Assembly (NCBI GenBank): GCA_950295325.1
Contig: OX485807.1
Location: forward strand, 35,248,440 to 35,312,439
Reading direction: 5' to 3'
Source: Polytrichum commune
Lineage: Eukaryota; Streptophyta; Polytrichopsida; Polytrichales; Polytrichaceae
DNA: 64,000 nt
Each line of letters begins with the position of its first letter. The stretch's first letter is position 1. A model generated the notes under the pieces. That model did no database searches. It was given only the letters and a program-made list of their open reading frames with translations, and was not told the DNA's origin. Made by a program: the position numbers and the translations under genes. This document shows, piece by piece, positions 1 through 59,246 of this stretch.

Positions 1-1510
1 GGCTTGTCCGGGCGGGGACAAGGTGATGGCGCGTGCTCATAAAAGTGCTACCCGCGAGCTAACGAGAGTTGGCGCATGGGAGTCATGAACCCATGTCTCG
101 AAAGAGCAAAGTGGGAACCGAGTCGGGCGGGACTTGGCATCACCCCCGTGCGATCGAGGCGTGGCTTAACAATGGAAAGCCATCTCGGAGTTGCAACCGA
201 GACAACTTAGTGGAAGCGTTGAGGTCTCGCCTAGATGTGTCATGTTAGGCTAGTGGAGCCTAATGGGGGAGGCCCCAAAGGAGGGGCAACCCAAGTGAGT
301 CCCAAAGTAGGTGGGTCTAGTATAGGTTAGGTCCTTGGATGAGAGATCGAAGGTCGCTAACGGACCACCTAGGAACGACACCTTTAGGACTAATATGCCA
401 AATTTGAAGATGCATTGTGGGGGTCGCGCCCTAAGGTAAACACAATGCCGCACCATAGAGGATGGCAACTTGAGAATTGGTGTGCCGACTACGAGTATAG
501 TCGATGAGGGCATCGACTCCGTTTGGTGGGGGTGAGTGTCGCGCACCTCTCCATGAGGAGTGCCCGAAACACCATGGGCACAAGGGGGACCCCGGAGTGA
601 CACCCGGGACTTGTGGCGCCGATGGTGAGAGGGCCCAAATGATCCTAGTGTGGGTGAGGGCCCCGGGCGTTGGGAACGCCTCCCACCCACGGAGACTAGG
701 AGGCATGAGGGTGAGGCCATGAGCTATGCGTAGCTCATGGCGTGGTGATTCTAGAATGCTCAAGATCACCTCAATCGGAGGGGTGAGCTAGGAGTTATGG
801 CCATTTGAGTGGGGTGCTGTCCCGGGACAGCGCCCTGGTACAGCAGTGCCTGGGAGTGATTCCCGGGACTGCCAAGGTTCAAACAGGCATAACTTCCTCA
901 AGACTTGCCTGAATGGGGCAAGTGAGGAGTCCATCGGCATCTACGTGAAACGTAGATGAAGATGGAGTGGTTGGTGGTTATGATCAGACATCATACAAGG
1001 AAGTTATGATGGTCTGAAGCTGCAGGGTGGGTTCTAGGCCCAGCAGCTAAGGGAAAATGTCCACTTGGCCCCAACTCTTGGTAGAGAGACAAGAGGTTGG
1101 TTGACGGTGGGGTAGGGGCCCCGCGTGAAGTCCTAGAGGCTTATATGGGTGAGGTGGTGTGGCCTCACCCACCCGAGGCCGAACGGCAAGGCCTCCATGG
1201 GCATTGGCCCATTGTGAGGCCATAGTTGCCTAGTATGGTTCGGGTTGTTGTAGTGTTGCTCCGGCAATGCGATGATCAACATGGGATTGGACTTCCATGG
1301 ATGGAAGTCCACATCTAGGAATGGGTTACCGATTAAGGGGTGAGTCCCGAAAGCAAAGTAGGAGGGTTGGTTCCCTCCTATGAACTATAAGGTCCGGGGT
1401 AGGAGGAGCTAATCATTAGCATGGCGGAATGCGAATGGTTAGCGCTCGTAACCTTTGCTAGAATTGAAAATTGGCAAGATTGTCAAGGGGGGCTAGCAAG
1501 GGTTGCGACA
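1..1510 (+). repeat. 5' LTR of chromovirus E1 (first 4 bases outside window)
   Basis: Aligns end to end with 3691-5203 with scattered substitutions and small indels (for example an extra three bases near 391). It ends GGTTGCGACA at 1510. It carries a near-palindrome around 812-836 that is perfect in the other copies. The open frames within it are antisense or overlapping and show no protein family. Confidence 0.9.
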
Positions 1511-3413
1511 ATACGGGGGCGAGTAACTTTGCCAATGGTGGATTGTTAATGTAAGATGGATGGGCATTGCATATGGGGGCTTGAGGCTCGATGGTTGTCA
1601 AAGAGGACAACCAACTCATGACAAAGAATTTCTTTGCCGTAGTGCATTGCTTGAAGATGTGGCGACATTATTTGAGGTCGCACAAAGCAAAGGTCTACAT
1701 GGACAATGTGTCCTAAAAGTATTTTGACATACAAGCGCAAGTGAGCGCCAAGTCATTGCGGTGGCATGATATATAGTTTGGCGCTTATGAAGGTGGATTT
1801 GGTCCATAAACCGGACCGTGGAAATGTGGTGCCGGATGCGCTAAGTAGATGGGAAGAGTTCCAAGCAATGAGAACCATCCAAACCTTGTGGCTAATGTGT
1901 GCCGGTGAGGGAAACTTGTGATGCAAGATACGGGAGGGGTAAATTAACTACCCCGAAGCACAAATGCTTTTAGGTAAGCTTCGCAAGAGCAAGGTGCTCT
2001 AAGAGGTTAAGTTGGTGGACGGATTGTTCAAGTGCAAGCAAAGTCGGGTGTATGTGCCACAAGGCAAGTTGAGGCTATCCATTTAGAAGGAAGAATGTGA
2101 TTGTCCTATTGCCGGCCATAGAGGAGAAAGAAAAAACCGCCATAGAATGGTGTCAAAGAGGTACCATTGGCGGTACATAAAGGAGGATATAACCCACTTT
2201 GTGAAGGCTTGAATTAAAGTGCCAAGTGAACCGAACCTCTTACCAAAAGCAAGGCGGCTTCTTGCAACCGTTGCCTATCCCGTTGGAGCCATGGCATAGT
2301 ATGTGTATGGACTTGATTACAAGTTTGCCGGAGTCACATGGGTATGATGCCATCTTGTTGATGGTAGGGCGGTTTGCCAAGTTGGCACACATGGTGCCGA
2401 TTGTGGGAACCGCCACCGCGTTGGAGACCGCATAGCCTTTTCTCAAAGGATGGTTGAGGCACCACGGGTTGCCAAAAGTGATTGTGTGGGATCAAGATCC
2501 AAAGTTCACAAGTGCATTTTCAATGCATTTCTCTAAGGAGGTCGGAATGAAACTAAGGTTTAGCACGGCCTTGCATTCCCAAATGGATGGGAAAGCGGAG
2601 CGTGTGAATGGAGTCTTGAAGCAATACTTGAGGAACTTGGTGGGGGCGGACCAAAGAGATTGGGTGGACTATGTGGGTCGAGCGGAGTGTAATTGCAATG
2701 TAGCCACGCACTTGGCTACCAAGGGGTCGTCTTTCGTGGTGGCTTATGGAGTGGATGCGCTCCAACCTATTAACCTAGCTCTCGAGGGGGCACATTCAAC
2801 ACTAGAGTTCAACCAAGATGGTGAGGACTTGGCCAAGGATGGTAAACAAGTCTTGGAGATGACCAAGTTGTTGGTGGAGAAAGCCCGAAGGTGCTACGAG
2901 GTGCAAGTCAATGCCGGAAGACGCAAAGTGGAGAATGAGGTGGGCCAATAAGGTGTTGTTGAATGTGGACAACTTCATTTCCCCAAAAGGCCTCATTCCA
3001 AAAGTTCATGTCCAAAATTGGAGCTTCGTTTTCCATTGTGGAACAAGTGTTCAAGGACATGTATAAGTTGGAATTACCGCCGGAGATCAAAGTGCATCCG
3101 ACATTTTATGTCTCATTACGAAAGTCATTTTAGGACGACACCTTGTGGCCCGAACACAAGCAAGTGGTTAGGCCACGTCCCGACCTTGTGGAGGTCATTT
3201 GGAACATGAGGTAGGAGGGCATCCTCAAGTGTAGGAAGCCCAAGTGAAAATGAAAGAAAATGTACAAAGGAGTACTTGGTGAAATGGTGAGGATACCATG
3301 AGAAAGAAACCGCTTGGGTGGCGGCAAGAGACATGGTGAACACCAATGAATTGGTGAAGCACTTTGAAGAAACTAAGGCTAAGGATTCCAATAAAATGAA
3401 GCATAGGCATTGA
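1511..3413 (+). pseudogene. pol: Chromovirus pol remnant: RNase H end, integrase, chromodomain
   Basis: Reading the plus strand and tolerating stops, 1511-1860 gives the end of a Ty3-type RNase H (KNFFAVVHCLKMWRHYL, then a decayed DALSRW-like end). 2090-2440 carries the zinc-finger side of integrase and the first catalytic Asp (CMDLITSLPESHGYDAI). 2454-2951 carries the second Asp (WDQDPKFTSAF) and the catalytic Glu (GKAERVNG). 3000-3410 matches the integrase C-terminus (PEIKVHPTF) and a chromodomain, visible as EYLVKW and ETAWVAARDMV in alternating frames. The DDE residues are present, but a TAG at 2433-2435 separates the first from the second, and there are further stops and frameshifts. The same TAG is in E2, so it predates both insertions. 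Not able to make a working enzyme. Confidence 0.88.
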
Positions 3414-3690
3414 TGAGGACATCAATCTCCTTTAGTGGGGGAGAGACGCTAGTAGCACACTTAGCTTCGAGGTTAATTACTCCACAACATGAACTTGTTC
3501 TTTGGCTTGAGGGAATAAAGTCCAAACTTTAGTGGTGCAAAGAGAAAAGTATGAGATGAGGTCCTAGTCTTGTACTTGTGCTTGGTTAGTGGAAGAGGGG
3601 GAATAGACATGCCAAACTAGGTTGGGTAAGCCGAGTAATTGGGGGCCATGGCTTGGAGGGGCCTTGGATAAAACCAAGAAACTTCTTAGT

Positions 3691-5203
3691 TGTGGGCTTG
3701 TCCGGGCGGGGACAAGGTGATGGCGTGTGCTCATAAAAGTGCTACCCGCGAGCTAACGAGAGTTGGCGCATGGGAGTCATGAACCCATGTCTCGAAAGAG
3801 CAAAGTGGGAACCGAGTCGGGCGGGACTTGGCATCACCCCCGTGCGATCGAGGCGTGGCTTAACAATGGAAAGCCATCTCGGAGTTGCAACCGAGACAAC
3901 TTAGTGGAAGCGTTGAGGTCTCGCCTAGATGTGTCACGTTAGGCTAGTGGAGCCTAACGGGGGAGGCCCCAAAGGAGGGGCAACCCAAGTGAGTCCCAAA
4001 GTAGGTTGGTCTAGTATAGGTTAGGTCCTTGGATGAAAGATCCAAGGTCGCTAACGGACCACCTAGGAACGACACCTTTGGGACTATGCCAAATTTGAAG
4101 AAGTATTGTGGGGGTCGCGCCCTAAGGTAAACACAATGCGGCACCATAGAGGATGGCAACTTGAGAATTGGTGTGCCGACTACGAGTATAGTCGATGAGG
4201 GCATCGACTCCGTTTGGTGGGGGTGAGTGTCGCGCACCTCTCCATGAGGAGTGCCCGAAACACCATGGGCACAAGGGGGACCCCGGAGTGACACCCGGGA
4301 CTTGTGGCGCCGTTGGTGAGAGGGCCCAAGTGATCCTAGTGTGGATGAGGTCCCCGGGCGTTGGGAACGCCTCCCATCCACGAAGACTAGGAGGCACAAG
4401 GGTAAGGCCATGAGCTATGCGTAGCTCATGGCGTAGTGATTCTAGAATGCTCAAGAACACCTCAATCGGAGGTGTGAGCTAGGAGTTATGGCCATTTGAG
4501 TGGGGCGCTGTCCCGGGACAGCGCCCTGCTACAGCAGTGCCTGGGAGTGATTCCCGGGACTGCCAAGGTTCAAACAGGCATAACTTCCTCACCACTTGCC
4601 CGAATGGGGCAAGTGAGGAGTCCATCGGCATCTACGTGAAGCGTAGATGAAGATGGAGTGGTTGGTTTCTGGAATCAGACATCATACAAGGAAGTTATGA
4701 TGGTCTGAAGCCGCTGGGGGCTTCTAGGCCCAGCGGCTAAGGGAAAATGTCCACTTGGCCCCAACTCTTGGTAGAGAGACAAGAGGTTGGTTGACGGTGG
4801 GGTAGGGGCCCCGCGTAGAGTCCTAGAGGCTTATATGGGTGAGGTGGTGTGGCCTCACCCACCCGAGGCCGAACGGCACGGCCTCCATGGGCTTTGGCCC
4901 ATTGTGAGGCCATAGTTGCCTAGTATGGTTCGGGTTGTTGTAGTGTTGCTCCGGCAACGCGATGATCAACATAAGATTGGACTTCCATGGATGGAAGTCC
5001 ACATCTAAGGAGTGGTTACCGATTAAAGGGGTGAGTCCCGAAATCAAAGTAGGAGGGTTGGTTCCCCTCCTATGAACTAATGGTCCGGGGTTAGAGGAGC
5101 TAACCATTAGCATGGCGGTATGCGAAGGGTTAGCGACTCGTAACCTTTGCTAGAATTGAAAATTGGCAAGATGGTCAAGGGGGGGCTAGCAAGGGTTGCG
5201 ACA
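3691..5203 (+). repeat. 3' LTR of chromovirus E1
   Basis: Full-length 1513-bp LTR, TGTGGGCTTG...GGTTGCGACA. It contains a perfect 24-bp palindrome at 4503-4526 (half-site GGGCGCTGTCCC), followed closely by a second, looser CCCGGGA inverted repeat. The base after it (5204) starts the host exon. Confidence 0.93.
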
Positions 5204-5650
5204 TCTAGGGAAGTCTCGTTTCTCAATTCCATTGTGTCGGTTGCGGACTCTTCCTCTTGTTCGGCCAATCAACGACGTTGATGTTTCTCGTTTGGAGAAT
5301 GAGTTTGTGATGGGGTATCGTGATGGTGACCGAGCTATGTACGTCTCAGCATACAACAACCTCGATGAGCCTCTTGATGTCTCCGATGACATCAAGTCCT
5401 CCAGGAGTCCATTATAGCAGGAGGCCAATGCAGAGTTTGATGCCATACTCCAAAAAGACTCCGACCTTGCTTACTTTGTTGGCAAAATGTTCTTCGTGTG
5501 GGAAGGGAACCATCGATTGACAGCTTGGTGGAGGCATATCAACAATCATCACCCGTTGGACAAAAATTGGCATATATGGGCTGATTGTATTGTGGTGGAT
5601 GCAAGAAATTGCACCGCTCTCTTTCTTAATGCTATGAATGACATCAACTG
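5204..5650 (+). other. Exon encoding the ParB-like domain
   Basis: The frame begins at 5205 and is open apart from one TAG at 5416-5418. The key box GNHR is at 5505-5516 (about residue 101 of the visible part), preceded by hydrophobic FFVW and followed by LTAWW, as in ParB/sulfiredoxin-fold proteins where a G-x-H-R box binds nucleotide. The domain continues into exon 2, where DNLPAKLLRIRTFGKM follows. The upstream part, including the start codon, lies beyond the chromovirus insertion. Confidence 0.55.
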
Positions 5651-6524
5651 GTGAGTTCAACATTTAATGTTGTTGATCGTCTCTTTTGTTTGTTCGCATT
5701 TTTTCCTCTAACATTTTATTTGTCTAGGTCCACGGAGTATGACCATGTTAAGGACAACCTCCCCGCCAAGTTACTTCGCATTCGCACGTTTGGAAAGATG
5801 AGGCTAGAGGAGTTCAAAGACCTCCTTTCCGTTTCGGACTACAAGATGTGTGAGTCCAAGATGGAGAAGAGTCTTACTTGGTATCCCCTGACATTAGATG
5901 TCTTCGTCAAGTTCTTATACAAGGTAAAATTTGTGTACATTTTCCACTCCCATCCTTCTCCCACGTCTATGTGCGCTTCTTATCCTTATTTTTGTTTTTT
6001 TCAGAGGGAGATATCCAACGCGGCTGATACCGCGGCAAGGTTATATCGTGAGGCTACTCCGGAGGCTCAGAGAACTGCTACCGATATTTGGAATGCTATG
6101 ACAAAAGCCCAAGATAGGTTGATCAAAACCATTCGTTCTCGGAACTTTGAGAAGTTCATTTCCGTTGCCCACAAGGACAATGATGATGATTTCTTCAACG
6201 AGGTGTCTCTCCTATCTTTGTTTTTTGGTTTAGTTTTTCATCCTCCTATGAATTTTGCCGTGCTTGTTTTATCTTTATTTTACTTATCTTTCTTCTATGT
6301 GGCAGATTGACCGTCATTTCTCCGCTTTCCTGGTCATTGATATGACAATTGAGAAACTTCAAAAGGTGGCCACCACACATGTAGATTCCCACTTCAAGGC
6401 CAAGTGGCTACGTTGGTGGAACTCTCCTCCCGAGGTCAAGGATAAGAATAGATTTCCCTCCGATCTCCCTCTTAGGGAGAAAGTCCTCGACAACTGGCTC
6501 AACAAAGCTTCTTTCTGGGCTCAG

Positions 6525-8718
6525 GTGCATCCTCAGTATTTTGACTCCGTTTCTTCCTTTCCATTCTACATGTGGGATTCGAGTGGGTCATGCCAAGGTT
6601 TCGGATTTCAAGGGGATAGTGGGGTATTAGTGGGCCATGTTGAGGTTTCGGATTTGAATTAGATAAGCTAAATTCAGATCATGAGTCGAATAAGTGGCCA
6701 GGTTGATGTCTCAGATTTCTAGTTAATAAACTAAGTTCAGATTCTCAGCCGAATAACTGGCCTGGTTAAGGTTTCAGTTTTCTAGAATATAAGCTAAGTT
6801 CTGATTTTGAGTCGTATAAGTGACCATGTTTGAGGTTTCAGACTTCTAGTTGATAAGCAAGGTTCAGATTATGAGTCTCATAAGTGGCCAGTTTGAGGTT
6901 TCAGATTTGTAGTTGATAAGCAAGGTTCTGATTATGAGCCTAATAAGTGGCCAAGTTAGAGGTTTCAGATTTGTACTTGATAAGCTATGTTCAGATTTTG
7001 AGCCTAATATGTGGCCATATTAGAGGGTTCAGATTTCTAGTATGTAATCTAATTCCAGATTTTCAGTCTAGTTTTGAGGTCCACTAAATACTTGGCCAAG
7101 GGGGGGGGACCCTCTCGATTCCGAGAGGGTGGGGATATTGGGGTTTTTGTGGGCCATGTGTAAGGTCTCAGATTTGTAGTTCATAAGGAAGGTTCAGATT
7201 ATGAGCCTAATAAGTGGCCATGTTAGTGGTTTCAGATTACTCGTTAATAAGCTAGGTTCAGATTATGAGCCTAATAAGTGGCCAAGTTAGAGGTTTCAGA
7301 TTTGTACTTGATAAGCTAGGTTCAGTTTTTGAGCCTAATATGTGGCCATATTAAAGGGTTCAGATTTCTAGTATGTAATCTAATTCCAGATTTTTAGTCT
7401 AGTTTTGAGGTCCACTAAATATTTGGACAGGGGGGGGGACCCTCTCGATTCCGAGAGGATTAGGTAAGTGGGGTTTTAGCGGGCCATGTTTAAGGTTTCA
7501 GCTTTGTATTTGATAATCAATGTTTTGATTATGAGCCTAATAAGTGGCCATGTTAGAGGGTTCAGATTTCTAGTATGTAAGCTAATTCCAGATTTTCAGT
7601 CTAATTTTGAGGTCAAAGAAATATTTGGACAGGGGGGGGGGGCCTCTCGTTTCCGAGAGGGTGGGGTAAGTGGGGTTTTAGTTGGCCATGTTAAGGTATC
7701 AGATTTGTAGTTAATGCCCGTAGTTAATGAGCTAGGTTCAGATTATGAGGCTAATATGTGGCCATGTTAGAGGGTTCAGAATTCTAGTATGTAAGCTAAT
7801 TCCAGATTCTCTGTCTAGTTTTGAGGTCCACTAAATATTTGGCCAAGGGGGGGGGGACCCTCTCGATTCCGAGAGGGTGGGGATAGTGGGGTTTTAGTGG
7901 GCCATGTGTAAGGTCTCAGATTTGTAGTTAATGAGCTAGGTTCAGATTATGAGCCTAATAAGTGGCCAAGTTTGAGGTTCCAGATTTTTGGTTGATAAGC
8001 TAGGTTCAGATTATGAGGGAAAGAAGTGGCCATGTTAGAGGTTTCAGATTTGTAGTTGATAAGCAAGGTTCAGATTATGAGGCTAATAAGTGGCCAAGTT
8101 AGAGGTTTCATATTTGTACTTGATAAGCTAGGTTCAGATTATGAGGGAAATAAGTGGCCATGTTAGTGGTTTCAGATTTGTAGTTAATAAGCTAGGTCCA
8201 GATTATGAGCCTAATAAGTGGCCAAGTTAGAGGTTTCAGATTTTTAGTTGATAAGCTAGGTTCAGATTATGAGGGAAAGAAGTGGCCATGTTAGAGGTTT
8301 TAGATTTGTAGTTGATAAGCAAGGTTCAGATTATGAGGCTAATAAGTGGCCAAGTTAGAGGTTTCAGATTTGTACTTGATAAGCTAGGTTCAGATTATGA
8401 GGGAAATAAGTGGCCATGTTTGCGGTTTCAGATTTGTAGTTGATAAGCTAGGTTTAGATTATGAGTCTAATATGTGGCCATGTTTGAGGTTTCAGATTTG
8501 TAGTTGATAAGCTAAATTCAAATTTTCAGCCTAATAAGTGGCCAGGTTAAGGTTTCAGAGTTCTAGTTAATAAGCTAAGTTCAAATTTCTAATGTCTTAA
8601 GGGGCCATGTTAGAGGTCTATGTTGTCAAAATTGAATTTTGTTTTTCATATATGGTTCAAGTTAGAGTGGAGTATGTTATCAAGTACCATCCCCTTACTA
8701 TTTTCTTTGTTGTCATAG
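6525..8718 (+). other. Large intron of the ParB-methyltransferase-like gene
   Basis: Donor CAG|GTGCAT at 6524/6525 and acceptor CATAG|TTGGAG at 8718/8719 are both in phase 0 and restore an open frame on both sides. The other introns of the gene are 77-103 bp; this one is 2194 bp, almost entirely because of the tandem array inside it. A donor slightly downstream would also keep part of the frame, so the exact donor is inferred. Confidence 0.6.
6590..8620 (+). repeat. 64-bp tandem repeat array (about 30 units) inside an intron
   Basis: Successive units share TTCAGATTATGAGCC, TAATAAGTGGCCA, GAGGTTTCAGATTTG and GTTGATAAGCTAGG. The period is 64 bp with point differences and occasional partial units. 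Four interspersed longer segments at about 7100-7140, 7428-7465, 7630-7668 and 7846-7882 carry a run of G followed by an inverted repeat (CCCTCTCG / CGAGAGG), so the array has a second-order structure. No coding potential. Not a CRISPR array: there are no unique spacers. Confidence 0.93.
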
Positions 8719-9834
8719 TTGGAGAAGGGGGTTGAGGGTGAGATAGCTTCATTTGAAAATGAGTGTTCCGTTGAAATCGATTGGAGTTCCGCGGAGGATA
8801 TTTATCAACCGGCCAATTATGTTGAGCATTGGAGGCTGAATCTTTGGGACAAGGCATTTCTGGTTTATTTTGACGACAAGGGAGATTTGAAATTTATCAA
8901 AGGCCTTGATCTCATGGATTTTGAGGAAGGCCCCATAGCAATCAAACGCGTCGCTTACCGGTAATATTTTGAGTTTTCTTTTATTTCATATAGTTTTTGT
9001 TTCATTTCAATCCCGCCACCTTTTTTGTTTATGATGTTCTTCATTTTACAGGTTCATCCACCGTGAGCTCGTTGTGAAGAATGCTTTGCCTTCTTCGTGC
9101 TTGCCAACTTTCCTTGTAGATTGGGTCGATGTCAACTCCGATCTTTGTGTGTACACGCCCGTGCAAGTTTCCAAGTTTTCGGAGTCTCACTTGCTGGCTG
9201 GGGGATGGTACTTGGATTGTTCTGGAGGATTTGTGCCTGAGGTAAAGAAGCCTCTTTTTTCCACCCTTGTGAGTAGTGCTCCCAAGTTGACCTTTGTCCC
9301 CTTTGAGGAGCCCGACATTGTTGAGCTTCCTCCTCCACCGCCCAAGGCACCAAAGGGAAAGGGAAGAGCTAGGAATACCGGCACTCAATCAACTCGGTCT
9401 GCCTCAAAGACCCTTGTTCAACCACCCACCCTTTTACAGAGTCCACCTAGTACTCCATCCATTGCTCCATCAGTTGCTCCATCAGCTGCCCTCTCTATCA
9501 CTCCATCCGCATCTCGTCCACAAACTATTGCTACTCCTTCACACAGTGGCACTTCTCTACTCTCCTTGCCTCGCAAGAGGAAGGCCGCCCTCTTGGATAC
9601 GAGTGCCACCTCTTCGGATTCCCCTACCACGCTTGCCCTCATCGAAAATGTGGACATGGTACAACTCATGCTCGATTCCGACCTTGCAGGAGGTCCCCTC
9701 CCGGCATATACGCGCATACAAAAGTTCATTGCCAAGGTTTGTATGTTTTCTTTTGGCATTCATCAGACTCCTTTCCGTTTGGTTTGCTTTTGTTTTTCCT
9801 TCTCAATTTTTTCTCATGAATTTTTCATTGCAAG

Positions 9835-10716
9835 CCGGGGAAGGTCGCTCCCGTGTGAACACCTCCTCTACATTTCACAAGGGCCTCGATTTACTCTTCG
9901 CGGACATTCCTGAAAATTTGCCGGTGCCCAACATCTCCACGGATGTTCCTGAATGGAACAAGCTCCATGATTCTTACTATGAGTGTCTTTTTACATTTGC
10001 AAAATCTAACCTCTATGATCATGGCGTCCTTGTCCTTGTCCATTGTGCGAGTGCAAGTGTTTCTAGGATGGTTTTCGATTGGATACACACTTACGACTTC
10101 TACGTCGCCGAAGATTGGTTCGGAATGGCTGATTTGGACCTCCAATCTCCGGTGGACCCCTCTGGAGTGGTAAGCAACTATCCATCTCCTAGTCCATTTT
10201 TGTTTTGTTTTTCATTTTACTTATTCCGATTCTTATGAAATCGTTGTCATTTTTTCAGACTCGCAAATTCAATATCAAGGTTCTTGTTCGTGCTAACTCC
10301 GTTCTGAAAGTGCGACCGGAGGCCGCCCAGGAGTATGGCTACTACCTCCAGCGAGATGGATGGTTGAATGCTTTCACCGATGAGAAGAGCCAGACAATGC
10401 GCAGTGATGGGATACCCTGGAGAGGTGCTCGCGAAAAGCATCAAGTTTTTTTTTCTATCATTTTTGCTACTCTTACCGATAAGAATGATGTTATTATGGA
10501 CTGGCAATGTGGTGTAGGTGGTTCGATTACAGCGTGTCGCTCCATTGAGCGGCATATTGTGGCCCTTAAGAGTGACCCAGTGATTTTCAATGCGATACTA
10601 CTCCCCATGCGTGAAAACCAACCTTCGCGACCTCCCCGCTCAAATGCCACACCGTCCACCTCTATGTTTGATCCTCCTAAGAAGATGACCAAACGCGCAT
10701 TCGGTTTTCTTTGTGC
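9835..10716 (+). other. Exons 7-8 encoding the methyltransferase-like fold
   Basis: ADIPEN is encoded at 9900-9917, in a segment like the DPPY motif IV neighbourhood (hydrophobic strand, D-x-P, Asn-Leu). DWQCGVGG at 10499-10522 matches the glycine-rich SAM loop (usually DxFxGxG) and is followed by an alpha-helix-like stretch and IVALKSD, in place of the acidic end of motif II. The intron at 10170-10258 lies between the two motifs. Loss of one Pro and of the aromatic residue in motif IV suggests an inactive or repurposed domain. Confidence 0.55.
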
Positions 10717-11024
10717 GTAAGTTTTATTTCTATGTTTTCTCATATTTACGTTCTTGTCATTTTCCCATCTTTGTGTGTTATTTTGTTTCTAATCTTATTG
10801 CTTATTGGTTCAGAGCGCCAAGGGAGAACGCATGTATGAGTTCGAGTCCTTCCAAGACGTTCAAGCTCCCAACCTATGCTGCTAGTTTTGCCAATCTTTT
10901 AGCGGAAGCTCCGTCTCCACCTCCTAGTCGCATCCGGCCTTTCAACAAACTAATAGAGGATTTTCTAGACATAGAGGCCGAGGAGGGTGAGGATAGTGAT
11001 AGACATGGTAGTCCTAGTTCTTGA

Positions 11025-36040: not shown

Positions 36041-36122
36041 TGTGGTATGGCCCTTCAGTGGCCCTTATGTTTTAATAGTTTCATTGTTGTTGTCATTGTG
36101 AAAGGGCGATAAGGCGCTCTCA

Positions 36123-36746
36123 ATGTGGTCAGGTGAGGAACACATTCAATCGCAAGCGCAAAACAAGATCACACGGTCCCTTAGTCGAATGCTCAACGAA
36201 GGACTACACACGGACGTGACGATTTTCCCATCAAGTGGAAGCGTGGGAGCCCACAAGGTTGTTCTTGCTTCACGCTCTCCTGTCTTCAACTCCATGTTCG
36301 ACCATGACTTGACGGAGAAACAATCTTCTACAGTGCACATCAACGACATGACCCTGGAGTCATGTCGTGCGTTGTTACACTACTTGTACGGGAGCCCGGA
36401 GCATGAGGAGTTTCAAAAGCACCGGGAGGCCCTCGTCCATGCGTCTCACAAATATGGCATCCCGGACTTGAAGGCTGCGTGCGAACTTAGCTTACTCAAT
36501 GACATTGATGTGCACAATGTGCTCGCAAGATTGCATGACAGCTTGTTGTACGAGCTTGGCCACTTGAAACGCAAGTGTTTGCGCTACTTGTTTGAGTTTG
36601 GCAAAGTCCACGAGTTGCGGGAGGAGTTCGATGCATTTCTTCGCGAGGCCGATAAGGACCTCGTTGTGGAGCTTGTGCAAGAGCAGCTGAATTTCCACAC
36701 AAAGAGATGGCTTCTAGAGCTGGACTTGGTGAACCCCGAGGCCTAG
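36123..36746 (+). CDS. BTB/POZ domain protein, At1g21780-like, N-terminally short
   Basis: 207 residues without an intron. Residues about 24-125 form a BTB fold: LHTDVTIF, GAHKVVLASRSPVFNSMFDHDL, CRALLHYLYGS. This is followed by a BACK-like helical segment (NVLARLHDSLLYELGHLKRKCLRYLFEFG). These domains usually bind Cullin-3 and select substrates for ubiquitination. The family member At1g21780 has, from memory, roughly 120 more residues before the BTB domain; these are missing here. An in-frame TGA eight codons before ATG 36123 means any N-terminal part must come from an upstream exon, and I find none. It may be a complete short protein, the last exon of a gene or a retrocopy. The intact frame and protein-like codon use argue for recent function. 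Just downstream a piece of its end is duplicated. Confidence 0.8.
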   Translation: MWSGEEHIQSQAQNKITRSLSRMLNEGLHTDVTIFPSSGSVGAHKVVLASRSPVFNSMFDHDLTEKQSSTVHINDMTLESCRALLHYLYGSPEHEEFQKHREALVHASHKYGIPDLKAACELSLLNDIDVHNVLARLHDSLLYELGHLKRKCLRYLFEFGKVHELREEFDAFLREADKDLVVELVQEQLNFHTKRWLLELDLVNPEA

Positions 36747-48684: not shown

Positions 48685-49800
48685 TTACAAGGTGTTCATC
48701 CATGTGCCGGCAAAGTTTAGCAATTTTGCAACTTTGAGGTCTTCGAGAGCCGTGAGTTGAGCCGTGAATAGCCAATTGGGAACGGTGTTTTCCTGGGATG
48801 TATTATTGAAGGTGCCAGCGTTCATGAGAATATAACATCTAGATTTTTCAGATGAGATCAGTAATTTCCTAATTTCCCATACAGCTTTGTTGTGTCTTTT
48901 GACGTGAAGTGAATGTATATGTTGTTGTTTACACGTAAGTAGTACATGTAACCTCGTGTCCGGTTCGTATGAGTTGCAAATGGGGCATGTGATAGAGGGA
49001 TATGATGGTCTACCGAAGAACAATTGCTTTCGAGCATTGCCCATATAGGTTCCTGTTCGGAATTTGATGAGGCATGATTTTTGTTTATCCGTGATTTCCG
49101 GGTTTTCCCATAATTCATTAGAAAGTTCTTTGTCTATATCTGCATTTCCTGTCCATTTGTAAGTGTTGGGGGTTTGTGTGGCCATGTTTTCCAAGTTGTT
49201 TTCCCTGTCGTATTTACTAATTTGTTTTTCTAGGAATCTAACAGGGCCTTTATCAGGAACGTCCATCATTGAGGCCCAGACGTCCTTTTGGTAGTAGTAT
49301 GGGGTGGCATGGGCATGTTCATATGGGTGAATAGCAATTCTGTGCTCTAGTTCTAGCCCTTCTTTTGCCAATTTGTCTGCTTGTTCGTTGCCGTTAATGT
49401 TGACGTGTGCTCTGACTTTGTATAGTGTGGTTGGTTGTGTACGGTTTTGAAGTAGTTGTACCATGGTGGCGAGGGTGATTTGGTCAGGGTGACTATTGTG
49501 AAGTGTGGGGTGTTTAATTTGTGTGTTGAGTAGGTATAATACATTGAGACTGTCGGTAAATATGTAGGCGGGTTCATTTGGATATAGTGTATTAATGATT
49601 GTTAGTGTTTCATGTATGGCTATCATTTCTGCTCGTAGTATGTTTTGGAGTCCATGTAGTCTTTTGGAGATGTTAAGGCCTTTTGGGCTATAGATTCCAT
49701 AGCCAGCCCTTTCTCTTCTCCATACTCTAGGGTTAATTTCTTTGGGTTTCATAAAAGAACCGTCTGTATAGTAGCTTAATTGTGGATGGAATTTTAATGG
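48685..49800 (-). pseudogene. LINE RNase H domain and C-terminal zinc-like tail
   Basis: The four catalytic acids are all present: TDGS (49757-49768), the Glu of RAEMIAIHET, the Asp of FTDSLNV and the Asp of NEQADKLAKE. The tail has CPICNSYEPDTRLHVLLTC, a CCHC-like arrangement seen at the end of several RNase H LINE proteins. 355 codons are open from an internal ATG at 49752; the domain itself starts about 10 codons earlier. This is the best preserved part of the element. Confidence 0.88.
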
Positions 49801-50088
49801 TAAGTTGGTTTGTTAATTAGGGAATTGTGGAATAAGTATGTTATTATTATTGGGGGTGTTTGGATAGTTAGATTTAGCCCATTTTTTGCTAGGGTTAACG
49901 GCGGTATTTAAGGGGGTGGGTGGTACAATTTGTGTGTGAATTTGTAATATTTGGAGATTATTTGCTATGTTGACGAGTTGATTCATTTGTTTGTAGGTAC
50001 CGATGTGATTGTTTTGGTGGTGGATACAAAATATTCGCAGTGTTGATAATTCTTTTCTCGTGGTATTGAGTTTGGGGGGAATTGTGGG

Positions 50089-51363
50089 TTATTCGTATAT
50101 GATGGTGTCTGCTGCAAAGTGGGCAATGATGTGTGTATCCAAGAATGGGCCAGTGTATGGGTTAAAGTTATGGTACCAATCCATATCTTTTGAGATAAGT
50201 ATAGTGATTGTATTTGGGTCGTTTTTGGCCGCAATGCGGGCCCAATGGATGGCTTGTTGTACGTCTGTTGCGTTAGGGGGGTGGGCGTAACCAATTCCCT
50301 TCCATTTTTGGTCAAATGCTTTTCCTAGGGATCCAAATATTCTATCCCTAGAGAATGGTGAGTGGAATTGGGTGAATTGTGTGGGACAAGTAACTGGGGA
50401 TGAGAAGTATGAATGGTTGATATTAAATGACTTTATTAGGAAATCTAGTATTGGAGTTGGTATAGTATATTGGGCGTGTTTAAGTGGGTCATTTTTTGGA
50501 ATACGGTATTTATACCTTTGGTATAGCCACACGATTTCAGTTTCAAATGATTGGGTAGGTGGTTCTAGACTATGTGGGGTATCTTTAGCTTGATGGTATT
50601 GTTTCCATAGCCACAATAATCTAGTTTTTGGGATGGTAATGAGGTGCCGGCCGTTGTCTTCATATATGTGAGCGACGTCAAATTGTATTTGGATAGTGTT
50701 AGTATTTGTTTCGATGTCACTCTCTGGGTTGCATTCATTTATGGAGATATGTGCCAATGGGATTATTATGGCAGGGGTAACGTATCTGGTATCTCTTAGT
50801 TGTTCCGTGGAGAAGTATGCGTTGACGATATTTGTGAAGAATTTGTGTTGCCTTTTCGTATAATATTGGGTAAGTAGTTCGGTGTTGTGGCAACTAGTAT
50901 AGGCATCACAGTAGGAAAATAACTCTCTTTGGGTGCGCCATTTGTTGTATCTAGTATTATTTGTTGTAGTCCATTGGCAAAGGTATGATGTGTCATTTCT
51001 TTTAATCCCGTTAGAATCTATGAGTTGTCTTTGTTTGTGATCTAGTATTGTGTGTATAGGAAATTGACGGGGGTTGTTAAGCATATTGTTGGGAGGCAGG
51101 GGTAGGTGGGGGATAGGGGGGTTTGGGGGGTGTACAGGGGGGGTTGGGTGTTGAGGGAGGATGGTATGATTTATTATTGTGTAATCATTCTTTAAGGTTC
51201 GTAGGGGGTAATGGTGTGGGCATGGTAGGTGGCATTCTTGGTGGCAGGAAGGGTGGCAAAATAGTTGATTCGCGATGTTTAATGCACTTTTGATGAGTTT
51301 TGTAGGATTGGAGTGGTATATTTTAAAGTCGTCTGGGTTCATTAAGGTTATGCCATTGGGCAT
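50089..51363 (-). pseudogene. LINE extra region between RT and RNase H, methyltransferase-like PP motif
   Basis: 424 open codons in the same frame as the RT end. Near the N-terminus is a Cys/His cluster (CHPSCHQECHLPCPHH, about 51215-51262). In the C-terminal quarter is FGSLGKAFDQKWKG, then YAHPPNATDVQQA (HPPN at 50272-50283), then ITILISKDMDWY. That order (F-x-S, YAxPP, hydrophobic strand, WY) resembles the degenerate methyltransferase-like domain in the C-terminal part of DIRS/Ngaro-type retroelements. The resemblance is from memory of the motif pattern only. It could also be an unrelated accessory domain. Confidence 0.5.
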
Positions 51364-51450
51364 GATTATTTGTTCTAATTTTATTATATTGTGCGATAGA
51401 AATTTTTGTAATAATTTAAGTGAAGTGTTGGGGTTTAGGTCTTGTAGGTT

Positions 51451-51950
51451 TTAAGCTTCTTTCAACCATGCAGTTTCAAGTGTGGATGGGTTTAATAATA
51501 AACAATTTATTGTACTTTTTAGGTGAACTCCTGCTTCATGTTTAAGTAGGAATAGCGTTCTAGTGATAGGTGATCTAACACAATGATGGTATTTAATGCG
51601 GGTTATTTCTCTGGAACCTCCAAATTTTGCAAGTATAAATTGTGTTAAGCCATGATAAATTTTTCCAAGTCTACCTTTGTCATTAAAGGCATTTTGTAGT
51701 TGTTCTCCGATACACCGCAAGTAGGCATTCTGTAGAGAGAATGCTTCAATTCCGAATAGATCGTGTGGGAGTTGTGTAGCGATATTAGATGTGTTTTTTG
51801 GTAATCCGTATATTATTTTATGAAGTGCTATAATCTTCTTATCGAGTTTTTTGATAGCCGGAATAGAGTATGGTACTGTGTAAAAGCTGTATGCTATACC
51901 ACCACGTATGACTGTGTCTGCCATGTTGATTTTTTGTTTCATGTTGGCTG
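51451..51950 (-). pseudogene. LINE reverse transcriptase, thumb side (downstream of E2)
   Basis: Reads NMKQKINMADTVIRGGIAYSF and onward through LHKIIYGLPKNTSN, continuous in frame with 59242 upward once E2 and one GGCTG are removed. It ends at TAA 51451-51453, which lies in frame 90 bp before the next ATG, so the stop is a mutation in a longer frame. Confidence 0.8.
51946..51950. repeat. Target site duplication of E2 (left), GGCTG
   Basis: GGCTG immediately precedes TGTCGCAACC. The identical pentamer follows the shortened LTR at 59242-59246. Confidence 0.85.
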
Positions 51951-53461
51951 TGTCGCAACCCTTGCTAGGTCCCTTAATAATCTTGCCAATTTTCAATTCT
52001 AGCAAAGGTTACGAGTCGCTAACCCTTCGCATTCCGCCATGCTAATGGATAGCTCCTCTTACCCCGGACCAATAGTTCATAGGAGGGAACCAACCCTCCT
52101 ACTTTGCTTTCGGGACTCACCCCTTAATCGGTAACCCATTTCCCCAATGTGGACTTCCATTCATGGAAGTCCAATCCTATGTTGATCATCGCATTGCCGG
52201 AGCAACACTACAACAACCCGAACCATACTAGGCAACTATGGCCTCACAATAGGCCAAAGCCCATGGAGGCCTTGCCGTTCGGCCTCGGGTGGGTGAGGCC
52301 ACACCACCTCACCCATATAAGCCTCTAGGACTTCACGCGGGGCCCCTACCCCACCGTCAACCAACCTCTTGTCTCTCTACCAAGAGTTGGGGCCAAGTGG
52401 ACATTTTCCTTTAGCTGCTGGGCCTAGAACCCCCCCAGCAGCTTCAGACCATCATAACTTCCTTGTATGATGTCTGATCATAACAACCAACCACTCCATG
52501 TTCATCTACGCTTCACGTAGATGCCGATGGACTCCTCAGTTGCTCCATTTGAGCAAGTCTTGAGGAAGTTATGCCTATTTGAACCTTGGCAGTCCCGGGA
52601 ATCACTCCCAGGCACTGCTGTACCAGGGCGCTGTCCCGGGACAGCGCCCCACTCAAATGGCCATAACTCCTAGCTCACACCTCCGATTGAGGTGTTCTTT
52701 AGCTTTCTAGAATCACCACGCCATGAGCTACGCATAACTCATGGCCTTACCCTTGTGCCTCCTAGTCTTCGTGGGTGGGAGGCGTTCCCAACGCCCGGGG
52801 CCCTCACCCACACTAGGATCACTTGGGCCCTCTCACCAACGGCGCCACAAGTCCCGGGTGTCACTCCGGGGTCCCCCTTGTGCCCATGGTGTTTCGGCCA
52901 CTCCTCATGGAGAGGTGCGCGACACTCACCCCCACCAAACGGAGTCGATGCCCTCATCGACTATACTCGTAGTCGGCACACCAATTCTCAAGTTGCCATC
53001 CTCTATGGTGCGGCATTGTGTTTTCCTTAGGGCGCGACCCCCACAATGCATCTTCAAATTTGGCATAGTCCCAAAGGTGTCGTTCCTAGGTGGTCCGTTA
53101 GCGACCTTGGATCTCTCATCCAAGGACCTAACCTACACTAGACCCACCTACTTTGGGACTCACTTGGGTTGCCCCTCCTTTGGGGCCTCCCCCGTTAGGC
53201 TCCACTAGCCTAACGTGACACATCTAGGCGAGACCTCAACGCTTCCACTAAGTTGTCTCGGTTGCAACTCCGAGATGGCTTTCCATTGTTAAGCCACGCC
53301 TCGATCGCACGGGGGTGATGCCAAGTCCCGCCCGACTCGGTTCCCACTTTGCTCTTTCGAGACATGGGTTCATGACTCCCATGCGCCAACTCTCGTTAGC
53401 TCGCGGGTAGCACTTTTATGAGCACGCGCCATCACCTTGCCCCCGCCCGGACAAGCCCACA
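51951..53461 (-). repeat. 3' LTR of E2, full length
   Basis: 1511 bp. The plus-strand form is TGTCGCAACC...AAGCCCACA. Perfect 24-bp palindrome at 52626-52649. An antisense frame of 155 codons (52741-53208) is open here and in E1, but lacks protein features. Confidence 0.95.
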
Positions 53462-56400
53462 ACTAAGAAGTTTCTTGGTTTTATCCAAGGCCCCTCCAAG
53501 CCATGGCCCCCAATTACTCGGCTTACCCAACCTAGTTTGGCATATCTATTCCCCCTCTTCCATTAACCAAGCACAAGTACAAGACTAGGACCTCATCTCA
53601 TACTTTTCTCTTTGCACCACTAAAGTTTGGACTTTATTCCCTCAAGCCAAAGAACAAGTTCATGTTGTGGAGTAATTAACCTCGAAGATAAGTGTGCAAC
53701 TAGCGTCTCTCCCCCACTAAAGGAGATTGATGTCCTCATCAATGCCTACGCTTCATTTTATTGGAATCCTTAGCCTTAGTTTCTTCAAAGTGCTTCACCT
53801 ATTCATTGGTGTTCACCATGTCTCTTGCCGCCACCCAAGCGGTTTCTTTTTCATGGTATCCTCACCATTTCACCAAGTACTTTTTTGTACATTTTTTTCA
53901 TTTTCACTTGGGCTTCCTACACTTGAGGATGCCCTCCTACCTCATGTTCCAAATGACCTCCACAAGGTCGGGAGGTGGCCTAATCACTTGCTTGTGATCG
54001 GGCCACAAGGTGTCGTCCTAAAATGACTTTCGTAATGAGACATGAAATGTCGGATGCACTTTGATCTCCGGCGGTAATTCCAACTTATACATGTCCTTGA
54101 ACACTTGTTCCACAATGGAAAACGAAGCTCCAATTTTGGACATGAACTTTGGAGTGAGGCCTTTGGGCAAGGTGAAGTTGTCCACATTCAACAACACCTT
54201 ATTGGCCCACCTCATTCTCCACTTCGCGTCTTCCGGCATTGATTTGCACTCTGTAGCGCCTTCGGGCTTTCTCCACCAACAACTTGGTCATCTCCAAGAC
54301 TTGTTTACCATCCTTGGCCAAGTCCTCACCATCTTGGTTGAACTCTAGTGTTGAATGTGCCCCCTCGAGAGCTAGGTTAATAGGTTGGAGCGCATCCACT
54401 CCATAAGCCACCACCAAAGACCACCCCTTGGTAGCCAAGTGCGTGGCTACATTGCAATTACACTCCGCTCGACCCACATAGTCCGCCCAATCTCCTTGGT
54501 CCGCCCCCACCAAGTTCCTCAAGTATTGCTTCAAGACTCCATTCACATGCTCCGCTTTCCCATTCATTTGGGAATGCAAGGCCGTGCTAAACCTTAGTTT
54601 CATTCCGACCTCCTTAGAGAAATGCATTGAAAATGCACTTGTGAACTTTGGATCTTGATCCCACACAATCACTCTTGGCAACCCGTGGTGCCTCAACCAT
54701 CCTTTGAGAAAAGGCTATGCGGTCTCCAACGCGGTGGCGGTTCCCACAATCGGCACCATGTGTGCCAACTTGGCAAACCGCTCTACCATCAACAAGATGG
54801 CATCATACCCATGTGACTCCGGCAAACTTGTGATCAAGTCCATGCACATACTATGCCATGGCGCCGACGGGATAGGCAACGGTTGCAAGAAACCGCCTTG
54901 CTTTTGGTAAGAGGCTCGGTTCACTTGGCACTTTATTCACGCCTTCACAAAGTGGGTTATATCCTCCTTTATGCACCGCCAATGGTACCTCCATGACACC
55001 ATTCTATGGCGGTTTTTTCTTTCTCCTCTATGGCCGGCAATAGGACTATCACATTTTTCCTTCAAAACCGATAGCCTCAACTTGCCTTGAGGCACATACA
55101 CCCGACTTTGCTTACACTTGAACAATCCGTCCACCAACTTAACCTCTTTGAGCACCTTGCTCTTGCGAAGCTCACCTAAAAGCTTTTGTGCCTCGGGGTA
55201 GTTAATTTACCCCTCCCGTATCTTGCATCACAAGTTTCCTTCGCCGGCACACATTAGCCACAAGGTTTGGATGGTTCTCATTGCTTGGAACTCATCCGGT
55301 CTACTTAGCGCATCCGGCACCACATTTCCATGGTCCGGTTTGTGGACCAAATCCACCTTCATAAGCGCCAAACTATCATGCCACCGCAATGACTTGGCGC
55401 TCACTTGCGCTTGAATGTCAAAATTCTTTTAGGACACATTGTCCATGTAGACCTTTGCTTTGTGCAACCCCAAATAGTGTTGCCACATCTTCAAGCAATG
55501 CACTACGGCAAAGAAATTCTTTGTCATGAGTTGGTTGTCTTCTTTGACAACCATCGAGCTTCATGCTCCCATATGCAATGGCCATCCAATTACACATAAT
55601 CCACCATTGGCAAAGCCACTCACCCCCGTATGCACCTCAAAAGGTTTGTCAAGCTCCGCGAACTTGAGCACGGGCGTCTAAAAACACTTGCTCTCAAGCT
55701 CCCTAAAGACTTGGTGGCAAGGCTCATCCCACTCTTGGGATAGCCATTTCTTTCACAAGTCGGATAAGGTCGGATAACCATCAAGCTTAACGCTCTCATA
55801 TGCAATGGCCATCCATCTTACATTAACCATCCGCCAATGGCAAAGTCACTCGCCACCCCGTATTCACCTCAAAAGGTTTGTCAGGCTCCGCGAACTTGAA
55901 CACGGGTGGCAAAGACGACTTTGTATTAAGCTCCCCAAAGACTTTGGGGGCAAGGCTCATCCCACTCTTAAGATAGCCATTTCTTTCACAAGTCGCACAA
56001 GGTTTGACACCCTTTAAGCTTAATGCTCCCATATGCAATGGGCATCCATCTTGGATCAACATCCGCCAATGGTAAAGTCATTCGCCCCCGTATGCATCTC
56101 AAAAGGTTTGTCAAATTTCGCAAACTTGAGCACGGGCGGCGAAAAGAGCTTGCTCTTAAGCTCCTCAAAAACTTGGTAACAAGGCTCATCCCACTCTTGG
56201 GATAGCCATTTCTTGCACAAGTTGGACAAGGTCGGACAACCATCGAGCTTCATGCTCTTATATGCAATGGCCATCCATTTTACCTCAACATCCGCCAATG
56301 CTAAAGTCACTCGCCCCCGTATGCACCTCAAAAGGTTTGTCAAAGTCCGCGAACTTAAGCACGGGCGGCGAAGAGAACTTGTTTTTGAGCCCCCCAAAGG

Positions 56401-57150
56401 CTTGGTGACAAGGCTCATCCCACTCTTGGGATAGCCATTTTCCTCAATAAGTTGAATAAGGTCCTAGCAACCTTAGAAAACTCTCGAATGAAGTTGTGGT
56501 ACTAATTGGCTAGGCCAACAAATGACCTAAGCCATTTTTGAATGAAGGGCCAATTATCCTTTTGGATTGCCTTGACATTCTTCATGTTCGTCCACCAACT
56601 TCCTTTGTCACCACATACCTCAAGAACTCAATCTCTCGTTGAGCAAAGTTATTTTTCATTCCTTGGCGGTAATTTTTTTTTGGGCAACACATTGGTGAAT
56701 ACATCCTTGTATCTCACCAACATCACACCAATGTTGTTTAGGGGAGGCCCATCTTTCCTAGCCTCCCCATACGTTCCTTGGAGTTGCTCCAATTGAACCA
56801 CGACCATTATGCTTTCTATTTTTCATTTGGTCCATTAAGACCAAATTCAACTTAGATCCTCCTACCACATGAGTCCTTGTCAATTTGAACTTCAATTCTT
56901 TGCCATTATGACACATCATAATGCACCGCAAGCACACCGGCTTGCACCTCACATCTATCATGTGAGTTTCAAAGAAGGCGGCCTTCACAATGACATGCAT
57001 TTCATCTATTTCACATGGTGTGAAATTTTGACAAAATTCCAATGTCCCACATTGAAAGGTTACATGCATCGCGGCCTCCTTTGTCTCATGCGGTTCGCCC
57101 TTTCCAAACCACACCTTGGTGGGCTTCACCACTCTACCAATCGGCAAACC
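53462..57150 (-). pseudogene. pol: E2 pol remnant: protease-like, partial RT, RNase H, integrase, chromodomain
   Basis: From high to low coordinates: a retropepsin-like segment (57147-56758, CEIDEMHVIVKAAFFETHMIDV); RT start (VRYKDVF...LPKKNYRQGM, about 56710-56650) joined directly to the RT connection region (REIEFLRYVVTKE), so the palm with its catalytic Asp pair is gone; a tandemly repeated RT/RNase H boundary (55574-56455); integrase (54924-54199) with DDE residues but TAG at 54715-54717; integrase C-terminus KVHPTFHVSLRKSF; and chromodomain pieces KYLVKW and ETAWVAARDM (about 53800-53900). Many further stops. No function expected. Confidence 0.85.
55574..56455 (-). repeat. 227-233-bp tandem repeat of the RT/RNase H boundary in E2
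   Basis: TGCAATGG recurs at 55574, 55801, 56034 and 56263, giving three full units and a partial fourth. Each unit encodes the end of RT (QVFEELKSKLFSPPVLKFA) and the start of RNase H (KPFEVHTG, WMAIAY) and then begins again. The units have diverged, and several have lost frame. Confidence 0.85.
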
Positions 57151-58253
57151 CCAACTCCCTTGTGAGCTTTGGGGTCATGAAAGAATGCCTTAACTCTTTG
57201 TCAACCCATGAGACAAACCTCCCATTTATTTGAGCCTCAAGGTACAAAATACTTGGCCTCGGCTTAAGGCTACTAGCCTTGGCCACAAAGCCATCGTCCA
57301 ACATTTGGTCCTCGGCAACTTGGCTTGGCTTGGTCCGCAAAGCCAACTTTAAACATTTCGTCCGCGGGACAAATTGGTTTGGTGCCACAAAACCAATTTC
57401 TAATAATTTGTCCGCAAAACAAACATGTTTTGCCTTGGTAGTACAAAGCCACCTTCCCACACTCCGTCCGCGGCACGAACATGAATTGCCTTGGTAGGAC
57501 AAACCCACCTCCCAACATTCCGTCCGTGGCACAAGTATGATTTGCTTTGGAAGCATAAAGCCACCTTTCAACATTCCGTCCGCGGCACCAACATGTTTTG
57601 CCTAAGTAAAATGGACCAAACAATTTGCACTCATTTCTTTGGGACCTACTTTGGCTAAAGCCACTTGTGGTGATGCGCCGTCGAACTTCTCTTTGGGACC
57701 ATTGGCTTCAATGCTCTTGCAAACTTGATGGTCCCCACCGTGTCCTCAAGAAGCCTTGGGGACTTAAACAAGGCATCCACCACCCGCTTTTAAAACCCCA
57801 CCTAAAAGGATTCATTTCTTAGAAAGCTCGTCCGTTTTAGGTGTATCCTTCATTTGTGCGTTTGAATAGCGCACATAGGCCTTAAGAGGCCCCGGGTGCC
57901 TCATTAGCACCAAATTCATTCCAACATCAATACCTTCCAAGCATTTCGAATTGGAATTTCAATCCAACATTAATGCCCTCCAAGGTTTTGGGTGCTTTCG
58001 GTATTCTAGGCCCCAAATGTTTTTTGAGGTTTGCGGGAGCCCTTTTCAAAGCACTCCTCCATTTTCCTTACCAAATCCACCCTCATGCCCACCATTGTCA
58101 TTTGAACCAATGGTATGGTCAAATTCCACTTGCACATGATCCTTGTTCCAATTTGAGCCTCACAACCTTTTGGAAACCCCGGGCTCACCATCATAACCCG
58201 CATTTTTGATACCCATGTTTCCCTCAAAGTGCGAGCTCAAAACTTGGAACCCT
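57151..58253 (-). other. E2 5' internal region (gag position)
   Basis: Between the primer site and the protease-like segment. Short frames only (for example 58006-58227 minus). I recognise no Gag domain and no CCHC box, so either gag is deleted or it is too decayed to read. Confidence 0.5.
57290..57620 (-). repeat. 52-56-bp tandem repeat in E2
   Basis: TCCG(C/T)GGCAC-type boxes recur at 57361, 57411, 57467, 57523 and 57579 (last spacings 56 bp), each followed by a TTGCCTTGG(T)A...AAAGCCACCTT block. In one minus-strand frame each unit gives a variant of GGFVLPRQFMFVPRTEC. Confidence 0.8.
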
Positions 58254-58265
58254 GCTCTGATACCA
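58254..58265 (-). other. Primer binding site, initiator Met-tRNA
   Basis: The minus strand reads TGGTATCAGAGC two bases inside the 5' LTR end. This 12-mer is complementary to the 3' end of plant initiator methionine tRNA, the usual primer for Ty3/gypsy elements. Its presence only in E2 shows that E1 lost the site. Confidence 0.93.
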
Positions 58266-58267
58266 AA

Positions 58268-59241
58268 TGTCGCAACCCTTGCTAGGTCCCTTAATAATCT
58301 TGCCAATTTTCAATTCTAGCAAAGGTTACGAGTCGCTAACCCTTCGCATTCCGCCATGCTAATGGATAGCTCCTCTTACCCCGGACCAATAGTTCATAGG
58401 AGGGAACCAACCCTCCTACTTTGCTTTCGGGACTCACCCCTTAATCGGTAACCCATTTCCCCAATGTGGACTTCCATTCATGGAAGTCCAATCCTATGTT
58501 GATCATCGCATTGCCGGAGCAACACTACAACAACCCGAACCATACTAGGCAACTATGGCCTCACAATAGGCCAAAGCCCATGGAGGCCTTGCCGTTCGGC
58601 CTCGGGTGGGTGAGGCCACACCACCTCACCCATATAAGCCTCTAGGACTTCACGCGGGGCCCCTACCCCACCGTCAACCAACCTCTTGTCTCTCTACCAA
58701 GAGTTGGGGCCAAGTGGACATTTTCCTTTAGCTGCTGGGCCTAGAACCCCCCCAGCAGCTTCAGACCATCATAACTTCCTTGTATGATGTCTGATCATAA
58801 CAACCAACCACTCCATGTTCATCTACGCTTCACGTAGATGCCGATGGACTCCTCAGTTGCTCCATTTGAGCAAGTCTTGAGGAAGTTATGCCTATTTGAA
58901 CCTTGGCAGTCCCGGGAATCACTCCCAGGCACTGCTGTACCAGGGCGCTGTCCCGGGACAGCGCCCCACTCAAATGGCCATAACTCCTAGCTCACACCTC
59001 CGATTGAGGTGTTCTTTAGCTTTCTAGAATCACCACGCCATGAGCTACGCATAACTCATGGCCTTACCCTTGTGCCTCCTAGTCTTCGTGGGTGGGAGGC
59101 GTTCCCAACGCCCGGGGCCCTCACCCACACTAGGATCACTTGGGCCCTCTCACCAACGGCGCCACAAGTCCCGGGTGTCACTCCGGGGTCCCCCTTGTGC
59201 CCATGGTGTTTCGGGCACTCCTCATGGAGAGGTGCGCGACA
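58268..59241 (-). repeat. 5' LTR of E2, shortened at its outer end
   Basis: 974 bp, identical by eye to 51951-52925 except about one base, then cut at GCGCGACA where the other LTR continues for 537 bp more. The GGCTG duplication directly abuts the cut. The palindrome is at 58943-58966. Confidence 0.92.
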
Positions 59242-59246
59242 GGCTG

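Follow-up and report, generated by a model that had tools for sequence, protein, structure and literature searches.

A probable pseudogene in Polytrichum commune that joins a ParB-like domain to a degenerate methyltransferase-like domain

We analyzed a 64,000-nucleotide stretch of the Polytrichum commune genome (GenBank assembly GCA_950295325.1, contig OX485807.1, positions 35,248,440 to 35,312,439 of the forward strand; hereafter the window), in which an earlier note, made from the sequence alone, had described a spliced gene joining a ParB-like domain to a beta-class DNA methyltransferase-like domain. Nine exons were located on the plus strand at 5205-11024 of the window, and a single reading frame from 5205 comprises 997 codons. 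All eight introns have GT..AG borders, and seven of them are 77-103 bases long with 68-74% pyrimidine. The motifs named in the note (GNHR, DIPENL, AREK, and DWQCGVGG) are all located in frame. Its exons, introns, and codon count were confirmed, but the frame is closed by a TAG codon. The gene copy and the adjoining long terminal repeat (LTR) are laid out as follows, with the basis for each assignment in brackets.

3695-5203, plus strand: LTR ending within exon 1, partner of the LTR at 1-1510; a separate element, outside the gene
5205-5650, plus strand: what remains of exon 1, encoding the ParB/sulfiredoxin-fold domain and shortened at its 5' end by the LTR insertion (frame; relatives; fold of a relative)
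5415-5417, plus strand: in-frame TAG, Trp in relatives (alignment of relatives)
5505-5516, plus strand: GNHR box of the ParB-like domain (sequence; alignment of relatives)
5728-5923, plus strand: exon 2 (frame; similar pieces in relatives P0133 and P0155)
6005-6202, plus strand: exon 3 (frame)
6306-6524, plus strand: exon 4 (frame)
6525-8718, plus strand: intron 4 (2194 bases), made up largely of tandem repeats with units of 63/64 and 202 bases
8719-8960, plus strand: exon 5 (frame)
9052-9740, plus strand: exon 6, Pro/Ser/Thr-rich linker with a basic PRKRKA stretch at 9569-9586 (frame; relative P0011)
9835-10169, plus strand: exon 7, methyltransferase-like domain with the motif-IV-like FADIPENL at 9897-9920 (relatives)
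10259-10716, plus strand: exon 8, with AREK (motif-X-like) at 10427-10438 and DWQCGVGG (motif I) at 10499-10522 (relatives)
10550-10579, plus strand: acidic motif of exon 8, RHIVALKSDP (alignment of relatives)
10814-11024, plus strand: exon 9, including the final stop codon (frame)

The tandem repeats of intron 4 span 6633-8587 and contain runs of G.

This copy of the gene is damaged, by a nonsense codon and an LTR insertion that the earlier note did not report. At the position of the TAG, itself counted among the 997 codons, all 87 relatives covering the core have Trp, and another Trp, retained in 84 of these 87, is Arg in the window copy. A hidden intron spanning the TAG was considered by eye; the sole GT..AG interval is ~39 bases, which we judged too short. 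In the acidic motif of the putative S-adenosylmethionine (SAM) site, the window copy has K (codon 10568-10570), compared with E in 13 of 13 aligned relatives. Base 5204, where the earlier note had the feature begin, is merely the first base past the LTR, which ends at 5203, and not the start of the gene. The frame of exon 1 extends open upstream as far as 5190, and two relatives (P0081 and P0087) continue upstream of the breakpoint. Because P0081 is unbroken across this junction and the LTR ends at 5203, the gene copy is cut within exon 1 by a retrotransposon. The missing 5' part would be expected immediately before base 1 of the window, on the far side of the partner LTR, which is 95.8% like the LTR at the junction (K80 distance of 0.039 over 1505 sites). 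Despite eight intact splice-site pairs and an otherwise intact frame, the window copy is probably a pseudogene.

A query of 979 residues representing the whole protein found no relatives, probably because the predicted relatives are short pieces; single-domain queries worked. The methyltransferase part retrieved 80 clusters (weakest E 5.3e-5), and the N-terminal part retrieved 201 clusters at E up to 10, the best 120 of which were analyzed. The N-terminal alignment (A2) holds 72 of the 120 listed hits, and the N-terminal core comparison kept the 88 of 121 rows that cover the core, window included. For the methyltransferase part, alignment A3 holds 50 of the 80 hits and alignment A4 the window plus 16 relatives. 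Pattern-based motif extraction kept 46 of the 80 hits and skipped 34.

Window exon 1 is 93.3% identical to P0081, exons 6 and 7 are 86.5% and 93.7% identical to P0011, and exon 8 is 95.4% identical to P0004; these sequence matches exceed chance. From the remaining exons, only exon 2-like pieces were found in relatives (P0133 and P0155), and exons 3-5 and 9 were unmatched. The predicted relatives read straight across introns, which is what a gene caller of bacterial type would do with eukaryotic DNA. The longest contig is 53,305 bases for each of P0081, P0011, and P0004, and 5,004 bases for both P0063 and P0123; these equal sizes suggest, but do not prove, that both domains lie on one contig in relatives. 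Single linkage of the 88 core rows at 75% placed the window with 46 others and gave further groups of 14, 8, 5, and 3. Further scans for relatives in viral_contigs gave 3 pattern matches with exon 8 and 30 with the N-terminal alignment, and 53 were obtained in genome_contigs, none of them confirmed; the capture from bacteria or phage suggested in the earlier note thus gained no close relative from these scans. A tblastn search of phages with P0087 yielded six weak matches (best E 1), and the window had no match in Rfam.

The distribution of these copies bears on the earlier note's suggestion of a mobile element. Such a DNA element might carry the family as cargo or as a gene of its own, with copies arising by transposition rather than for a host function. 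The 80 and 201 clusters are numerous enough to fit this explanation. The copies are also dispersed, since 19 of the best 120 N-terminal clusters have longest contigs >80 kb, no two of equal size, and the introns retained in the read-through stretches point to copying at the DNA level. In addition, 16 of the best 120 clusters lack a match to the GN-box pattern, some of them being truncated. Against this, a search confined to the window found no element ends and no transposase, integrase, or terminal repeat linked to the gene, whose 5' side lies outside the window, and the neighboring LTR element inserted separately and has other copies in the window. We consider a mobile-element origin of the copies unlikely, at roughly one chance in four. 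As a weak proxy for selection, we compared 28 pairs of relatives. In the 18 pairs whose exon 7 is 80-97% alike, the read-through intron 6 has a median similarity of 46%, compared with 91% for exon 7. The remaining 10 pairs come from five near-identical clusters, and in these intron 6 is no less alike than exon 7.

Most known switches with the ParB fold come from prokaryotes, phages, and sulfiredoxin-type proteins. The proposed ParB-like N-terminal domain is supported by a structure model of this domain from one relative (pLDDT 84), which has the ParB-CTPase/sulfiredoxin fold: ParB/sulfiredoxin-fold chains occupy ranks 1-43 among the 50 PDB matches listed for it, the best with E 0.023. The G-x-x-R box of the fold is present as GNHR in the window. 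Its G, N, and H are invariant across the 72-row N-terminal alignment, and its R is kept in 78 of the 88 core rows, window included. In the 10 core rows where this Arg is replaced, seven have H, Q, C, or W, the pattern of C-to-T change at CpG, possibly reflecting decay of methylated copies. Sequence profiles were silent at this end of the protein. The Pfam ParBc profile recognized neither the window protein nor, with E values as high as 1 allowed, any of 72 relatives, and of two PDB sequence searches with the N-terminal part, one gave no match and the other a single unrelated match (E 1.3). The Pfam search of the window protein, a check whose negative outcome the earlier note had named as a refutation, likewise returned no ParB or methyltransferase match; support for both domains comes instead from the relatives and, for the first, from the fold.

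For the C-terminal part, the best match among relatives in PHROG is a DNA methyltransferase (E 3.1e-5), and the best PDB matches of the family profile are M1.HpyAVI and CcrM. A profile-profile comparison with beta-class methyltransferases scored 50, compared with at most 19.5 in 100 shuffles. The PF01555 profile matched 5 of 17 members, with a best E of 0.019 that does not reach the Pfam cut-off, and did not match the window protein. A PDB search with an alignment that included read-through intron residues (A1) gave one match, not a methyltransferase (E 1.5), and was repeated with introns removed. The putative motifs follow the beta-class order IV, X, I, with motif IV weakly aligned. Among the nine methylases used as references here, one has its SAM-site motif before the catalytic motif and three lack DPPY by pattern, so that beta-class membership is verified for only part of the set. 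In relatives, motif I was recognized in 17 cases and is DWQCGVG in 15 of them, and the Gly-x-Gly of motif I and the downstream acidic motif are kept in relatives, the window copy having K for E. These sequence comparisons support the view that the C-terminal part is related, at motifs X and I, to the beta-class methyltransferases; of the assignment in the earlier note, these two motifs stood, with a motif-IV-like stretch placed before them that aligns weakly.

That weak alignment of the motif-IV-like stretch to known enzymes weighs against our interpretation of this domain, as does its structure model, which is of low confidence and has a precorrin methyltransferase at Foldseek rank 1 (E 0.47). 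Both points would fit a different Rossmann-type methyltransferase in which motif IV has been misidentified. We regard this as improbable, the least likely of the explanations weighed here, given that the top sequence matches in the PDB, PHROG, Pfam, and NCBIfam are DNA amino-methyltransferases and that the motif-IV-like stretch precedes motifs X and I, as it does in those enzymes.

The degeneracy of motif IV holds across the recognized relatives. A broad pattern, which would also accept DPPYNL, recognized this motif 46 times in the 80 relatives: FADIPENL in 28, FADVPENL in 10, and near variants in 8, with the consensus FAD[IV]P[EK]NL. None of the 46 has the catalytic DPP[YFW], nor was the wider catalytic form [DNS]PP[YFW] found at this position; the single SPPF string among the 80 relatives sits within the proline-rich linker. 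The degenerate DPPY of the earlier note is in this way recovered in every relative where the motif was recognized, and it fits the non-methylating role proposed there. Because the relatives were retrieved with the window sequence as query, distant active members could have been missed.

Could the domain still be an active enzyme with an unusual motif IV? Motif I and the acidic E (13 of 13 aligned relatives) are conserved, so SAM binding may persist, and the D, second P, and N of DPPYN are retained. However, the recognized motifs have E or K in place of the aromatic residue. In the bdelloid rotifer methyltransferase N4CMT, replacing Ser and Tyr (SPPY to APPA) is reported to abolish activity (PMC8885841), and METTL14, which has EPPL and no aromatic, is described as inactive and as serving RNA binding and complex integrity (PMC5023411). 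An active enzyme seems to us improbable. The catalytic aromatic appears to be lost throughout the family with the SAM-site motifs largely kept, and, by analogy with the N4CMT mutant and METTL14, the domain is probably non-catalytic.

Among the 80 relatives, the majority of which do not extend over the region of PRKRKA, 10 have a similar basic stretch; PRKRKA suggests a nuclear localization signal and a nuclear protein.

Our preferred explanation, to which we assign a probability of about 0.5, is that the gene in the window is one broken member of a nuclear family with dispersed copies, whose proteins are non-catalytic relatives of phage ParB-methylase fusions and act as nucleic-acid-binding scaffolds. 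The intact protein, ~1000 residues or somewhat more, would begin with a ParB/sulfiredoxin-fold domain and end with a beta-class amino-methyltransferase domain; between them would lie a long middle part and then a linker that is probably disordered and carries the likely nuclear signal. Judging from its fold, the ParB-like part may bind nucleotide and/or oligomerize on DNA, with clamp-like behavior. The pseudo-methyltransferase part would serve as a binding or sensing module, holding DNA or RNA and perhaps SAM without methyl transfer, and the protein as a whole would be a non-catalytic scaffold comparable to METTL14. The exon anatomy, the lesions of this copy, the ParB-type fold of the relative, the methyltransferase relation at motifs X and I, and the fixed degenerate motif were computed; the nuclear location, the binding of ligand and nucleic acid, and the scaffold role are proposed by analogy. 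If correct, a large eukaryotic family joining a ParB fold to a DNA methyltransferase that is degenerate in all its members would broaden the known repertoire of ParB folds, add to the pseudo-methyltransferases, and offer a defined test case for the repurposing of phage-type DNA-modification proteins in eukaryotic nuclei. A bolder version, which we hold only tentatively and think rather doubtful, is that these ParB-fold pseudo-DNA-methyltransferases form an expanded, previously undescribed eukaryotic family whose ancestor was captured from a phage or a large DNA virus. Selection would have kept them as nuclear chromatin clamps responsive to nucleotide and SAM, and their spread would have been at the DNA level, perhaps via an unrecognized element.

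Elsewhere in the window, LTR retrotransposon copies lie at 1-5203 (plus strand) and 51951-55631 (minus strand), with a further LTR piece at 58268-59241 that is 99.9% like 51951-52924. The open reading frame (ORF) at 2436-2951 has a weak integrase match (rve, E 0.18), ranked below another weak match. Minus-strand ORFs spanning 48685-62432 flank the minus-strand LTR copy, and one of them carries RNase H (48685-49812, E 3.9e-14); to the eye, they look like a single non-LTR element into which the LTR element has inserted, but the ORF at 60075-61949 had no match in Pfam. The ORF at 36102-36746 encodes a BTB/POZ domain (Pfam BTB, E 3.8e-21) and resembles a plant type of BTB protein. Tandem arrays occupy 55546-56440 (period 229) and 63295-63665 (periods 12-48), and GC skew is strong over 60000-64000.

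Among known systems, M1.HpyAVI and CcrM are active enzymes that are not known to have a ParB domain. DPPY is intact in M1.HpyAVI and, as seen in the profile alignment, in CcrM, unlike in the window family. A plant amino-methyltransferase, the N4-cytosine methyltransferase DN4MT1 of Marchantia, is reportedly active. METTL14 belongs to the MT-A70 family and is not known to have a ParB domain. Like the window family, this non-catalytic partner of METTL3 has an amino-methyltransferase fold without the catalytic aromatic (PMC5023411), but its catalytic partner is METTL3, whereas none is known for the window family. Rotifer N4CMT is also a bacterial-type amino-methyltransferase in a eukaryote, but it is active, keeps SPPY, and has a chromodomain instead of ParB (PMC8885841). 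The literature matches listed contained, in their titles and abstract starts, no description of a ParB-pseudo-methyltransferase family. ParB-N6_N4 methyltransferase fusions are described as frequent in phages in a survey of the ParB-CTPase fold, in the main text of which a term search did not find the word plant (PMC12704722). Two phage proteins, Gordonia phage RedWattleHog gp206 and Curtobacterium phage Elener gp1, confirm the phage precedent cited in the earlier note. In each, as in the window family, one gene encodes a ParB-like domain followed by a beta-class-type methyltransferase. Both phage proteins have a GNH box in the first domain, and their methyltransferase motifs DPPY, TMKP, and DLFxGSG follow the beta-class order. 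Phage Vincenzo gp1, in which the SAM-site match precedes the catalytic match, was not used as a beta-class reference. Between the family and the phage fusions, the methyltransferase part scored 38.5, compared with at most 23.0 in 60 shuffles, and the N-terminal part scored 19.2, compared with a shuffle maximum of 20.2. The two phage proteins are 444 and 451 residues long, with a continuous frame and DPPY intact, whereas proteins of the window family have ~1000 residues encoded in nine exons and carry FAD[IV]P[EK]NL. Given these differences in length, in intron content, and in the loss of the motif, together with its long middle part and its likely nuclear signal, the window family is best described, from its sequence, as a probable variant of an architecture known from phages.
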